Origin: Blastocatellia bacterium | GTDB lineage: Bacteria; Acidobacteriota; Blastocatellia; UBA7656 | NCBI GenBank assembly: GCA_023265195.1 | Contig: JAHFUG010000015.1 | Span: 1 to 32,645 of the forward strand | Reading direction: 5' to 3' | Length of the DNA: 32,645 nt | In this document: positions 1,694 to 14,782 of the stretch, piece by piece | Position numbering within the stretch: position 1 is the stretch's first letter | How the letters are laid out: every line of letters starts with the position of its first letter | Made by a program: the position numbers and the translations under genes | The notes under the pieces: generated by a model | What the model saw: only the letters and a program-made list of their open reading frames with translations | Told to the model about the DNA's origin: nothing | Database searches by the model: none

Positions 1694-1723
1694 TTGACAC
1701 TCGGAAATCGTGGCCGATAGTAT
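1694..1723 (+). promoter_or_regulatory. Putative sigma-70 promoter of polA (leaderless type)
   Basis: TTGACA at 1694-1699, an 18-nt spacer and TAGTAT at 1718-1723. Transcription would start around 1730, at the ATG at 1731. This favours that ATG over the upstream GTG at 1710, which lies inside the promoter. Confidence 0.45.
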
Positions 1724-1730
1724 CCCCCGC

Positions 1731-4439
1731 ATGCCCCAAGCGAGGAAGAAGCTCTATCTGGTTGACGCAAAGTCACAGATCTACCGCGCTTATTACGCCG
1801 TCCGCCACCTCTCGACCTCGACCGGCATTCCAGTCAACGCGATCTTCGGCTTCACCAACATTCTCCGCAGGCTGATCACCTTGGAGAAGCCTGATTATCT
1901 TGGCGTAATCGATGACGCGCCCGAGCCGACTTTTCGGCACGAAGCGTTCGAGCGCTACAAGGCGACGCGGGCGAAGATGCCCGACGATCTGATCCCTCAG
2001 CTTCCTTACATCGATCAAGTTTGCAAAGTTCTCAGATGCCCGGTAATTGAAGCAGCCGGTTTCGAAGCCGACGACATAATCGGCGCTCTGGCGAAGCAGG
2101 CCGTGGAAGCCGGGTTGGACGTCGTTATCGTGACCAACGACAAGGACATGAGCCAGCTCGTCGACGATCACATCAAGATACTGCGCACGGACCGCAGCAA
2201 CGCTACAACGATCATGGACGCCGCCGCAGTCGAAGAGAAGTTCGGCGTCAGGCCCGATCAAATAGTCGATCTGCTCGGTCTGTGGGGTGACACTTCCGAC
2301 AACATACCCGGCGCGCCCGGAGTCGGCGAGAAGGGAGCAAAGCAGATAATTCAAGAGTTCGGTTCAATAGAAGAGGCGATCTCCCGAGCCGGCGAAATCA
2401 GCCGAAAGTCCTATCGCGAGAGCCTTCAGAACAACGCCGATCTGATTCGTCAATCGCGCGAGCTTGCGCGAATTCGCATCGATGTGCCGGTCGAGCTTGA
2501 CCTCAGCACTTTGGTTCTCGAGGAGCCCGATCGCGCCGCCGCCTATCGGCTATTCTCCGAACTCGAGTTCACTCAACTCAAAAAGGAATTCGAAGACGCC
2601 GCGAATTATGACACAGACGCGCCGGCGTCATCGCAAGCCCAGCCGGTCTCTACGAACGATTACTGCCGCGTAACCACCCGAGTGGAGTTGGAGCAGCTCA
2701 TCGAATCGCTGTGGGAGAGCGACAGCGCCGGCCTAGCGGTTGCCGAGAGCGCCGAAAGATTGGAAGGCATCGCGGTCTCTCAGCGCCCAGGATCCGCGGC
2801 GCTGATAGATATCACTGGATTCGATCAGTCGGCGGACCCGGTCGCGCTGATCAGGGAGTTCCTTGAGAACGGTCTCGTCGGGAAGTCGATTCACGATTGG
2901 AAGGGGATGCTCGCCGTGCTCGACCGCTATTGCGCGCGAGACCGCGCCCGTGCCGGAAGAAGCGACGGCCGGCTAGTCGACTTTAAAGCTTCGATTCGAA
3001 TTGAAGCCGTGCGAGACGACACGATGCTCGCTTCGTACCTTCTCGACCCGAACCGCTCCAGCTATCAACTGGCCGATATGGCGCGAGAGCATCTTCGCGT
3101 CGAGATGAGCGACGCATTAGAGGGCTTCGACGCACTTGGCTCTCGCACCGTTCAAGCCGCGGATCTGACCGCACGGCTGGCGCCGGTTCTCGATTCGCGT
3201 TTGAAAGAGGCCGGGCTGGAAAAGGTATACCGCGAGATCGAGCTGCCTCTGGTGGAGATTCTCTTCGAAATGGAACAGACCGGCGTGTTGATCGACGTTA
3301 TGAAGCTAAGAGAAGCCGGGCTTGAGATGGAGGAAGAGCTGGCGGGACTCACGGCCAAGATATATGAGCTCGCGGGAGAGAGCTTCAACATAAACTCGAC
3401 GGTTCAGTTGGGCGAGATATTCGAAAAGCTCAACTTCGGAGCCGGGCGCAAGACAAAGACGGGGCGCATCTCGACTTCGGCCGACGTGCTTGAAGAACTC
3501 GCCACCAAGTACGAACTGCCTCGGTTGATCATCGAGTATCGCGAGACCGCCAAGCTGAAAAACACTTACGTGGACGCGCTGCCTAAGCTGATCAATCCGC
3601 GAACGGGCCGGCTGCACACGACGCTCAATCAAGCGGTCGCGGCGACGGGCCGTCTCTCGTCCACCAATCCAAATCTTCAGAACATTCCGATACGATCCGA
3701 GATGGGCCGCCGAATTCGCGCGGCGTTCGTCGCCTCGCCCGGCCATCTCTTGATGTCGGCGGACTATTCGCAGATCGAGTTGAGAATCTTCGCCCACATA
3801 ACCGGCGATCCGGTGATGACGGAGGCTTTCAATAAGGGCGACGACATTCACGCTCGAACGGCTCGCGCGGTTTTCGGCGCTAAGACGAAGGAACAGGAAG
3901 CCGAGTTCCGGCGCGTGGCTAAGATCGTGAACTTTGCTATTGCGTATGACATCGGCCCGTTTGGATTGGCGCAGAGGACGGGGCTTTCGCGCGCGGAGGC
4001 GAAGGCCGCCATCGAAAATTACTACAAGACGTATACCGGCGTGCGGCGGTACATGGAAGAGACGCCGGAGCAGGTGCGAAAGACCGGCGTGGTTCGAACC
4101 ATCTTCGGCCGCACTCGGCCTATACCCGATATCAATAACCGCAATCACAACCTCCGCGCGCGCGCCGAACGCGAGGCCATCAACGCGCCTATTCAAGGGA
4201 CGGCGGCGGATTTGGTGAAGATCGCGATGATTCGGGTCCGCAACCGGCTGCGAACGGAAAAACTCGCCGCTCGGATGACGCTGCAGGTTCACGATGAATT
4301 GCTTCTCGAAACGCCTGAAGCCGAAGCAGCCCGCACAGCCGAAGTTGTTCGCGAAGAGATGGAAAACGTTCACAAGCTTGCCGTGCCTCTTCTAGTCGAC
4401 GTGCACGTTGGAAAGAATTGGATGGAAGCCAAGCCATGA
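1731..4439 (+). CDS. polA: DNA polymerase I
   Basis: Fills gaps and removes RNA primers during replication and repair. The protein is about 902 aa from the ATG at 1731; a GTG at 1710 would add 7 residues. Order of domains: N-terminal 5'-3' exonuclease (DAKSQIYRAYYAVR, GFEADDIIGALA, TNDKDMSQLV, GLWGDTSDNIPGAPGVGEKGA), a 3'-5' exonuclease-like domain, then the family A polymerase. Polymerase motif A is DYSQIELRIFAHITGD, motif B is RRVAKIVNFAIAYDIGPFGL and motif C is LQVHDELLLE. The proofreading domain looks inactive, because the usual FDTETD motif is replaced by LAVAES. In motif B the glycine after the conserved tyrosine is Asp, and NFG is NFA. The stop overlaps the start of the Sco gene (ATGA). 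Confidence 0.96.
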   Translation: MPQARKKLYLVDAKSQIYRAYYAVRHLSTSTGIPVNAIFGFTNILRRLITLEKPDYLGVIDDAPEPTFRHEAFERYKATRAKMPDDLIPQLPYIDQVCKVLRCPVIEAAGFEADDIIGALAKQAVEAGLDVVIVTNDKDMSQLVDDHIKILRTDRSNATTIMDAAAVEEKFGVRPDQIVDLLGLWGDTSDNIPGAPGVGEKGAKQIIQEFGSIEEAISRAGEISRKSYRESLQNNADLIRQSRELARIRIDVPVELDLSTLVLEEPDRAAAYRLFSELEFTQLKKEFEDAANYDTDAPASSQAQPVSTNDYCRVTTRVELEQLIESLWESDSAGLAVAESAERLEGIAVSQRPGSAALIDITGFDQSADPVALIREFLENGLVGKSIHDWKGMLAVLDRYCARDRARAGRSDGRLVDFKASIRIEAVRDDTMLASYLLDPNRSSYQLADMAREHLRVEMSDALEGFDALGSRTVQAADLTARLAPVLDSRLKEAGLEKVYREIELPLVEILFEMEQTGVLIDVMKLREAGLEMEEELAGLTAKIYELAGESFNINSTVQLGEIFEKLNFGAGRKTKTGRISTSADVLEELATKYELPRLIIEYRETAKLKNTYVDALPKLINPRTGRLHTTLNQAVAATGRLSSTNPNLQNIPIRSEMGRRIRAAFVASPGHLLMSADYSQIELRIFAHITGDPVMTEAFNKGDDIHARTARAVFGAKTKEQEAEFRRVAKIVNFAIAYDIGPFGLAQRTGLSRAEAKAAIENYYKTYTGVRRYMEETPEQVRKTGVVRTIFGRTRPIPDINNRNHNLRARAEREAINAPIQGTAADLVKIAMIRVRNRLRTEKLAARMTLQVHDELLLETPEAEAARTAEVVREEMENVHKLAVPLLVDVHVGKNWMEAKP

Positions 4440-5440
4440 GCCGCGCCGCGCTAAGATCGGCGCCGCCCCTGCACTGGTGGAAGATGTACGGTCGGCTCTC
4501 CGTGGCCGTCATACCAGACTCGATATACTCGAAAGATCGCGAGGCTCCAAGAGGAGCGGCCACGGAGGGCCGCCCGTACATTGCTTTTCTGCTATCGCTA
4601 TCCCTTGGTTGCGTTCTTGCTGCATGTAAATCGCCTGGCGCGGCAGGCGCAACCCGTTATGACTTGAAGGGCAAGGTCGTGTCCTTCGACAAAGCCGCTC
4701 GCCAAATCACGATCGCTCACGATGAGATACCCGGTTATATGGATGCGATGACGATGCCGTTCACGGTTAAGGATGACTGGGTGTACGGCGAACTAGCCGA
4801 TGGAGACCGCATTCAAGCGGCGTTGGTGGTTTCAGGAGGTAAGTCCTGGCTGGAAGAGGTCGTCGTGTCGCGATTGGAGAGCGCGGGCGGCGCGGAATCC
4901 GGCAAGACAGGTTTGCGGCTGCCGGAGCCCGGAGATTCGATCCCTAGTTTTTCGCTCATCAATCAAGACGGCAAGCCGATACACATCGCGGACTATCACG
5001 GACGAGCGCTGCTGATCACGTTCATTTACACTCGGTGTCCGCTGCCGGATTATTGTCCGCTGATGACCGCAAATTTCGCCGCGATCGATCGGGCCTTGAC
5101 GGGCAATCCTCGGCTCGCTGACGCGACTCATTTGATCAGCATAACGATCGATCCCGAGTACGATTCACCCGGAGTGCTTCGCGCATACGGCTCGAAGTAC
5201 GCCGGCGGGTTCGAACACTGGGAATTCGCAACGGGCTCGGCCGATGAAGTGAAGGCCGCTGCAAACTGGTGCGGGCTGAGTTACTGGCCGGAGAACGGCC
5301 AGATAATCCATGCGCTCAGCACCGTTTTGATTGGGCCGGACGGCAAGGTGATCAAGCTGTTCCGAGGTAACGATTGGAAGGTGGAGGATGTCCTGGCCGA
5401 AATAAGCAAAAGCATGTATTCGCGCGGCAGCGTTGGTTGA
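4436..5440 (+). CDS. Sco1/SenC-family lipoprotein with a CusF-like copper-binding domain
   Basis: Likely a periplasm-facing copper chaperone or thiol-disulfide protein serving cytochrome oxidase assembly. The protein is 334 aa from the ATG at 4436, which overlaps the polA stop. Residues 49-64 form a hydrophobic stretch ending in lipobox VLAAC (C64). A CusF-like segment follows (about 73-135, HDEIPGYMDAMTMPF). The Sco thioredoxin fold (about 155-330) has TRCPLPDYCPLM, with C201 and C207 in a CxxxxxC spacing instead of CxxxC, plus conserved H292. Residues 17-48 are encoded by an in-frame palindromic element (4485-4580). Without it the N-terminus would read as a normal lipoprotein signal. The real start could therefore be 4436, or the ATG at 4484 at the element boundary. 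The next gene encodes a separate CusF-like lipoprotein. Confidence 0.85.
   Translation: MSRAALRSAPPLHWWKMYGRLSVAVIPDSIYSKDREAPRGAATEGRPYIAFLLSLSLGCVLAACKSPGAAGATRYDLKGKVVSFDKAARQITIAHDEIPGYMDAMTMPFTVKDDWVYGELADGDRIQAALVVSGGKSWLEEVVVSRLESAGGAESGKTGLRLPEPGDSIPSFSLINQDGKPIHIADYHGRALLITFIYTRCPLPDYCPLMTANFAAIDRALTGNPRLADATHLISITIDPEYDSPGVLRAYGSKYAGGFEHWEFATGSADEVKAAANWCGLSYWPENGQIIHALSTVLIGPDGKVIKLFRGNDWKVEDVLAEISKSMYSRGSVG
4485..4580. repeat. 96-bp palindromic element inserted in the Sco gene
   Basis: Arms 4485-4508 and 4557-4580 (24 nt each) are reverse complements at 22 of 24 positions, with ends tgtac...gtaca and a 48-nt centre. The length is exactly 32 codons, so the Sco frame stays open. 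Read from either strand, the boundary encodes MYGR(L/P)SVA. This resembles the protein-coding palindromic elements known from Rickettsia in behaviour, though not by demonstrated homology. Confidence 0.75.
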
Positions 5441-10423: not shown

Positions 10424-10626
10424 GGGGCGTAAAAAAAATAAGTTCCCTTTTTCGAGGAGGCTCACCGCAGAGTCGCAGAGGCCGCAGAGAGGGATGCAGA
10501 GGGGGCTTGCTCTCTGCGGCTCTCTCAGCGATCTCCGCGACTCTGCGGTGAAGTTCTCACTTCACCTGCGGTCCTCATCTCGTGCTGCCGCATAACTCAA
10601 AACGGGAAGTTATTTTTTTCGTCTCC
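10424..10626. repeat. Nested inverted-repeat (MITE-like) element of about 200 bp
   Basis: Three nested arm pairs share one centre: 10432-10447 with 10604-10619 (15 of 16 match), 10463-10476 with 10537-10550 (14 of 14, caccgcagagtcgc), and 10481-10491 with 10510-10520 (11 of 11). The A/T-rich ends and GC-rich interior suggest a non-autonomous mobile element. No coding capacity is seen. It sits 20 nt upstream of the start of the 674-aa gene. Confidence 0.7.
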
Positions 10627-14181: not shown

Positions 14182-14229
14182 CAAACTTCAAAACATCACA
14201 GGTCCGGAAGAGGGATTTATCCCCGCTCC
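14182..14229 (+). repeat. Dispersed 48-bp repeat, copy 2
   Basis: Second copy of the segment at 1176-1223, in the same orientation, about 43 of 48 identical. It lies in the convergent gap between phoR and the Roadblock gene. Confidence 0.6.
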
Positions 14230-14263
14230 GTATTCTTTGTGGCTAGGTTCGGGACAGAACCAA

Positions 14264-14414
14264 GTTGTCATTGGTCAGTGGTTGGCCGGTCCGTGTGACG
14301 ATGGTTTTACACGTCAGTCGGATAGATTATCGAGGTGGGCTCGCTGAACAGTTTGTTTTTAGGTGAGGTAGTGGTTTTTTGAATTGCCGGCCCTAACCAC
14401 TGACCGATGACAAC
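14264..14414. repeat. Inverted repeat between phoR and the Roadblock gene
   Basis: Arms 14264-14289 and 14387-14414 are imperfect reverse complements sharing gttgtcat(c/t)ggtcagtggtt plus a GGCC-containing end, about 97 nt apart. The right arm ends at the stop codon of the minus-strand gene. It may be a mobile palindromic element or act as a bidirectional terminator. The gap 14076-14413 shows no gene. Confidence 0.55.
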
Positions 14415-14782
14415 TAGATTGCGAATTCTTCCTCCAGCGACAACTGCGCCTTGCGCAACTCGAATCGCGCGCGGCCAACGTTTCCGCGGGGGCTGATCGC
14501 AAGCAATAGAAAGTATTCCGGGGTTATGGGCCGAAGCAGATACGTCATCAGATCCGTGACCAAGACCATCTCTTTAAGCTCACCCAGGCACGTATCCGCG
14601 GCCACTCGCATACTTCTTCGCAGCAAGGTAGTGAACTCGGTTGCGACCAGGTCGATATCCAGGTCTCGGTCCGGCTGGGCGATCCGTCGTTCGATGGGAA
14701 TCCCATCAATGCCGAGTATGATCGCGGCGACGCCACCTTCCACGCGACTCAATATCCCGGTCAAGGTTTCTTCAAAACTCAA
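14414..14782 (-). CDS. Roadblock/LC7-domain protein (MglB-like)
   Basis: A 122-aa protein with the roadblock fold: MSFEETLTGILSRVEGGVAAIILGIDGIPIE at the start, then the long helix LVATEFTTLLRRSMRVAADTCLG, then EMVLVTDLMTYLLRPITPEYFLLLAISP. Such proteins pair with small GTPases; MglB is the GAP of the polarity GTPase MglA, which controls type IV pilus placement. It lies 125 nt downstream of pilQ on the same strand, probably as the last gene of the pilus operon. No MglA-like GTPase is in the window, so the partner is unknown. Confidence 0.75.
   Translation of the reverse strand: MSFEETLTGILSRVEGGVAAIILGIDGIPIERRIAQPDRDLDIDLVATEFTTLLRRSMRVAADTCLGELKEMVLVTDLMTYLLRPITPEYFLLLAISPRGNVGRARFELRKAQLSLEEEFAI

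Follow-up and report, generated by a model that had tools for sequence, protein, structure and literature searches.

GTAG-tagged REP dimers, the closest described relatives of the element reported here, carry an unpaired outer tetranucleotide on each REP, have stems of 6–9 bp and short loops, form doublets 20–100 bp apart and are mostly intergenic, with some lying in frame in genes (Di Nocera et al. 2013, PMC3733652). In-frame dimers encode 20–30 amino acids, N-terminal cases included, and intragenic GTAG-tagged dimers have been described in Opitutus terrae, Thauera and Thioalkalivibrio; the same study judged many N-terminal REPs to be extragenic, with translation starting downstream, and warned of misannotated starts (PMC3733652). 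In the outline given by Bertels and Rainey (2011, PMC3116915), REPINs consist of two inverted REPs that form one hairpin of ~100 bp and are dispersed through the genome. A further comparison is offered by the RPEs of Rickettsia (Ogata et al. 2000, 2002), reviewed with other coding palindromes in PMC10969869: they are ~150 bp long, with a peptide frame that is conserved, and in R. conorii almost half of the copies lie in genes.

An inverted repeat of this general appearance lies near the 5′ end of sco in a stretch of 32,645 nt of Blastocatellia DNA, the whole of which is called the window below (Table 1). The gene encodes a copper chaperone, and the genome is that of a soil acidobacterium. The arms of the repeat are 25 nt long, 92% complementary and separated by 48 nt; within the window, the arm sequence was found at these two places only, with up to three mismatches allowed and none expected. 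Folded as RNA, the palindrome has an energy of −61.7 kcal/mol, against a mean of −31.0 for shuffled sequences (z −8.5). The 96-bp palindrome of the initial annotation, with 24-nt arms matched at 22 of 24 positions, is the same structure without its outermost pair, and its length is, as was claimed, a multiple of three that leaves the sco frame open throughout. The motif MYGRxSVA had also been said to read outward from both ends; it is in fact read on opposite strands, from either outer end towards the centre, and the left arm alone encodes it in the sco frame, the right arm giving RGAATEGRPYI.

Table 1. Features at the 5′ end of sco (positions in the window). The arm profile gave no match above a score of 5 in the reversed control.
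Feature	Position	Strand	Basis and remarks
polA (DNA polymerase I), directly 5′ of sco, 4-nt overlap	1710..4439	+	ORF; next to sco in the two species of the genus
sco, lipoprotein with CusF-like and SCO1/SenC domains	4436..5440	+	ORF; Pfam PF02630 3.8e-21, PF11604 5.2e-14
Left REP arm, divergent copy	4484..4508	-	outer GTAC tag; MYGRLSVA in sco frame; profile score 21.8 (maximum 66.7)
Spacer separating the arms, 48 nt	4509..4556	.	repeat search
Right REP arm, near-consensus copy	4557..4581	+	outer GTAC tag; RGAATEGRPYI in sco frame; profile score 59.2
Hydrophobic region and lipobox of the signal (IAFLLSLSLGCVLAAC)	4581..4627	+	sequence; alignment

The suggestion that the palindrome belongs to a repeat family, and is not confined to this locus, holds well, as many copies of the arm are present in the genome and its relatives. 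In the genome that contains the window (7.55 Mb in 686 contigs), the arm core occurs at 76 places with at most one mismatch (2 in the reversed control), and a longer version of the arm gives 108 matches with at most two mismatches (0 in the reversed control). A position profile run over 331 kb of genome loci recovered 97 arms and none in the reversed control; these make up 34 doublets, in −/+ orientation with the tags outside, and 29 singles, that is, 63 elements, with 101 bp, measured from tag end to tag end, as the commonest doublet length. From the outside inward, the arm is GTAC-GGGCGGCC-CTCCGT-GGCCGCCC, comprising a tag, a G+C stem of 8 bp and a loop of 6 nt. The tag is GTAC in 55 of 75 arms and GTAG in 8 of 75, so that this genome departs from the canonical letter, while the arms of a relative in the same family (G006) are mostly CCCCTACA, i.e. 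GTAG. The repeats are thus short, G+C-rich, imperfect palindromes, repeated many times, with an unpaired GTAG-like tag and inverted doublets with tags outside. Judged by this sequence anatomy, two REPs joined head to head make up the element, which is REPIN-like and belongs to the GTAG superfamily, with a tag that is mostly GTAC in this genome.

It is the build of each arm, with tetranucleotide tag, 8-bp stem and 6-nt loop, that points to a REP doublet rather than to a relative of the Rickettsia RPEs, to which the initial annotation had likened it. RPEs share with it a palindromic structure and an in-frame position within unrelated protein genes, but only a few of the 63 elements lie in genes here, and no single reading frame is common to the arms. 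Kinship to RPEs is therefore unsupported, and a protein-invading family of the Rickettsia type, marked by a large share of copies in genes, was rejected on anatomy and on the low coding share. From the dimers of PMC3733652, which resemble it in tag position, stem, loop and largely intergenic distribution, the family differs in its mostly GTAC tag (GTAG in the relative), in having no RAYT found adjacent, in its Blastocatellia host and in a copy within a lipoprotein signal common to two species. Compared with REPINs, as outlined in PMC3116915, the two-REP hairpin and its dispersal are alike, and the difference is that the present family is known from sequence copies, with no cognate RAYT found. 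REPs lying in frame within genes have been known since 2013 (PMC3733652), and the sco element is therefore not new in kind but a well-supported further case of that phenomenon. It adds Blastocatellia to the short list of bacteria in which mobile palindromes have turned into protein sequence, with two genes whose orthologues lack the extra residues and with a leader copy common to two species. Two other ideas about the family were discarded: selection for triplet length, as the commonest length of 101 bp is no multiple of three, and a longer transposon bearing these ends, as the catalogued matches include no −/+ arm pair around a gene-sized insert.

Association with a RAYT (TnpA-REP) is a frequent, though not universal, trait of REPs. 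A search of ~1.5 kb around the Y1_Tnp matches, of which there are 18 in this genome and 17 across four relatives, found no RAYT flanked by this REP; the assembly is fragmented, and several transposase genes sit at contig ends. Several Y1_Tnp genes are flanked by other hairpins, and one doublet in G006 lies ~1.4 kb from a Y1_Tnp gene, a distance that chance can explain. Two loci, L065 (774-2225) and L066/L068 (contig C279, 945-2580), contain Y1_Tnp genes with two transposase-domain matches per frame and their own hairpin arrays on both sides (CCCCCAACGCAGTTGGGGG; CCACCCACGGCAGTGGGTGG), which is the RAYT-with-REP arrangement of other sequence families.

The start of sco is most likely ATG 4436, which overlaps the polA stop as ATGA, exactly as in the congener (locus L032), and for which an SD-like GGAAG is available; the element accordingly begins ~16 codons into the ORF. 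From the right arm to the lipobox Cys codon there is no in-frame ATG, GTG or TTG, either here or in that congener, Blastocatellia bacterium AA13 (G001), the only one in the comparison; only a rare start codon could therefore leave the right arm untranslated. On the simplest reading of the sequence, translation of sco probably includes the right arm at least. In AA13, the right arm lies at L032 1524-1546 in the same frame (RGAGATDGRPYI vs RGAATEGRPYI), no left arm is recognisable above background, and the sequence left of the arm cannot be aligned between the two species; the doublet as a unit in sco is consequently shown only here. The initial annotation suggested comparing Sco N-termini with and without the element, and outside the genus the aligned orthologues do have compact signals, starting just before the hydrophobic stretch. 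Within the genus no empty, REP-free site was found at sco, as the sole congener also carries the right arm. Deletion of the 96 bp leaves a plausible signal too.

We favour, with a probability of roughly 0.77, the reading that a REP doublet came to lie at the 5′ end of sco before the split of the genus's two known species, is translated as a long n-region and is tolerated because it is cleaved off. A putative RAYT would have mobilised the doublet; with translation from ATG 4436, the element would form a long n-region of the lipoprotein signal, and signal peptidase II would remove everything before the lipobox Cys, leaving mature Sco unchanged, so that the insertion would have been neutral. Such insertions could plausibly find a safe harbour in a leader that is cut away.

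The doublet may have been inserted into an old n-region or may have replaced it. A somewhat unlikely alternative to insertion, itself compatible with translation of the REP, is that the REP marks a rearrangement junction at which sco moved behind polA and lost its own start and n-region, the REP and unrelated sequence then supplying a new N-terminus. Direct polA-sco adjacency is seen only in this genus, and in G004 the order is polA, a second trpF-like gene and sco, the last starting with MRIKILAVF; moreover, the right arm abuts the hydrophobic region, and the sequence to the left is unalignable between the species. Against this, the trpF-like gene of G004 is a second, weaker paralogue, which allows the adjacency to be ancestral, and a plausible signal is also left when the 96 bp are removed. 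The intervening gene itself (L290, G004:C68:94934-95557) is divergent, and the usual trpF lies elsewhere.

Clearly less probable is that the REP lies in an untranslated 5′ leader, where any action would be as an mRNA hairpin, with translation of sco beginning 3′ of it at some non-standard codon, for instance the ATT that immediately follows the arm. This reading would place an SD-like GGAGG within the loop of the REP. It is favoured by the high stability of the hairpin, by the verdict of PMC3733652 that N-terminal REPs are mostly extragenic in several other genomes, and by the retention of arm sequence at an orthologous site that is intergenic. The absence of canonical starts between arm and lipobox in both species would, however, force the use of ATT or CTG, and a protein starting at ATT would have no basic n-region, whereas ATG 4436 offers an SD-like sequence and a polA overlap found in both species.

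Conservation between the two species bears on how old the copy in sco is. Three of the 11 REPs of AA13 occupy orthologous positions of REPs in this genome: one in sco, one between genes (C100) and one 5′ of a lipoprotein gene (C245). At all three the arm is well kept and the flanks are unalignable. The arms at the latter two sites are almost unchanged (L277 ~2190 vs G000 C100:3509; L278 ~2149 vs G000 C245:30391). Independent insertion at the same spot of sco in both species would fit the unalignable flanks and the different tag letters, GTAC here and GTAG in AA13, but we regard it as improbable: the arm is in the same frame and at nearly equal distance from the lipobox, and these features, together with the two other shared REP positions, make common descent simpler. 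Across sco, fourfold sites are only 39% identical between the species, and in the arm the codons of conserved residues are identical in 8 of 9 cases, against a gene average of 49% (P 0.017). Protein-level selection on the arm is not demonstrated by this, as the intergenic orthologous REP is equally well kept; the comparison points to DNA-level causes, such as homogenisation, hairpin selection or repeated insertion, rather than to selection on the peptide.

Codon-context scoring flags a handful of the 63 elements as intragenic; by this weak measure, the remaining elements do not appear to be intragenic. Codon usage alone separates coding from non-coding poorly. Some copies in genes stand out when orthologues are compared. 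A membrane protein (C327) contains MYGRPSVA within a stretch of 63 aa; AA13 lacks this stretch, its two aligned segments being contiguous, and in G002-G005 it is missing or considerably shorter. A SpoIID-like protein (C588) is longer than its AA13 and G005 counterparts by ~39 residues, which cover a doublet located in a linker. In a propeller protein (C405), GAATEGRPYI precedes the hydrophobic stretch of the signal, where the orthologues differ. The N-terminal cases in C630 and C245 may or may not be translated, given the TTG, GTG or ATG starts present further 3′. Several frames are open through the arms, which are read as RGAATEGRPYI, MYGRxSVA or others; the GTAC tag keeps the MYGRxSVA frame open, whereas GTAG places a TAG stop in it. 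Of the proposed protein-invading family, what stands is a set of genome-wide palindromes, in frame here and with at least two more members in genes that have shorter orthologues; specialisation for proteins does not, given that the majority of the 63 elements appear to lie outside genes. It is doubtful that signal peptides of this lineage (those of sco, of the C405 propeller protein and perhaps of C630) have repeatedly drawn n-regions and start codons from REP arms, and that the sco arm persists through selection on the leader peptide or on a hairpin in polA-sco mRNA. The fragmented assembly (686 contigs) might raise the thought that the palindrome at sco arose by chance or as an artefact, a notion of negligible weight, refuted by the fold z-score, the control counts with zero matches expected, the ~100 related arms and the same arm in an independently assembled congener.

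The window contains further repeats of other sequence. A second dispersed family (CAGGTCGGGAAGAGGGATTTATCCC) is represented at 1176-1223 and 14182-14229 and occurs at 209 places in the genome with at most two mismatches (reversed control 0), often as inverted pairs ~70 bp apart. A third, palindromic family (CACCGCAGAGNCGCAGAG, an inverted pair at 10462-10551) is found at 118 genome places with at most one mismatch (reversed control 0), and an inverted repeat at 14258-14420 has 26-nt arms that are 88% complementary and spaced by 111 nt.
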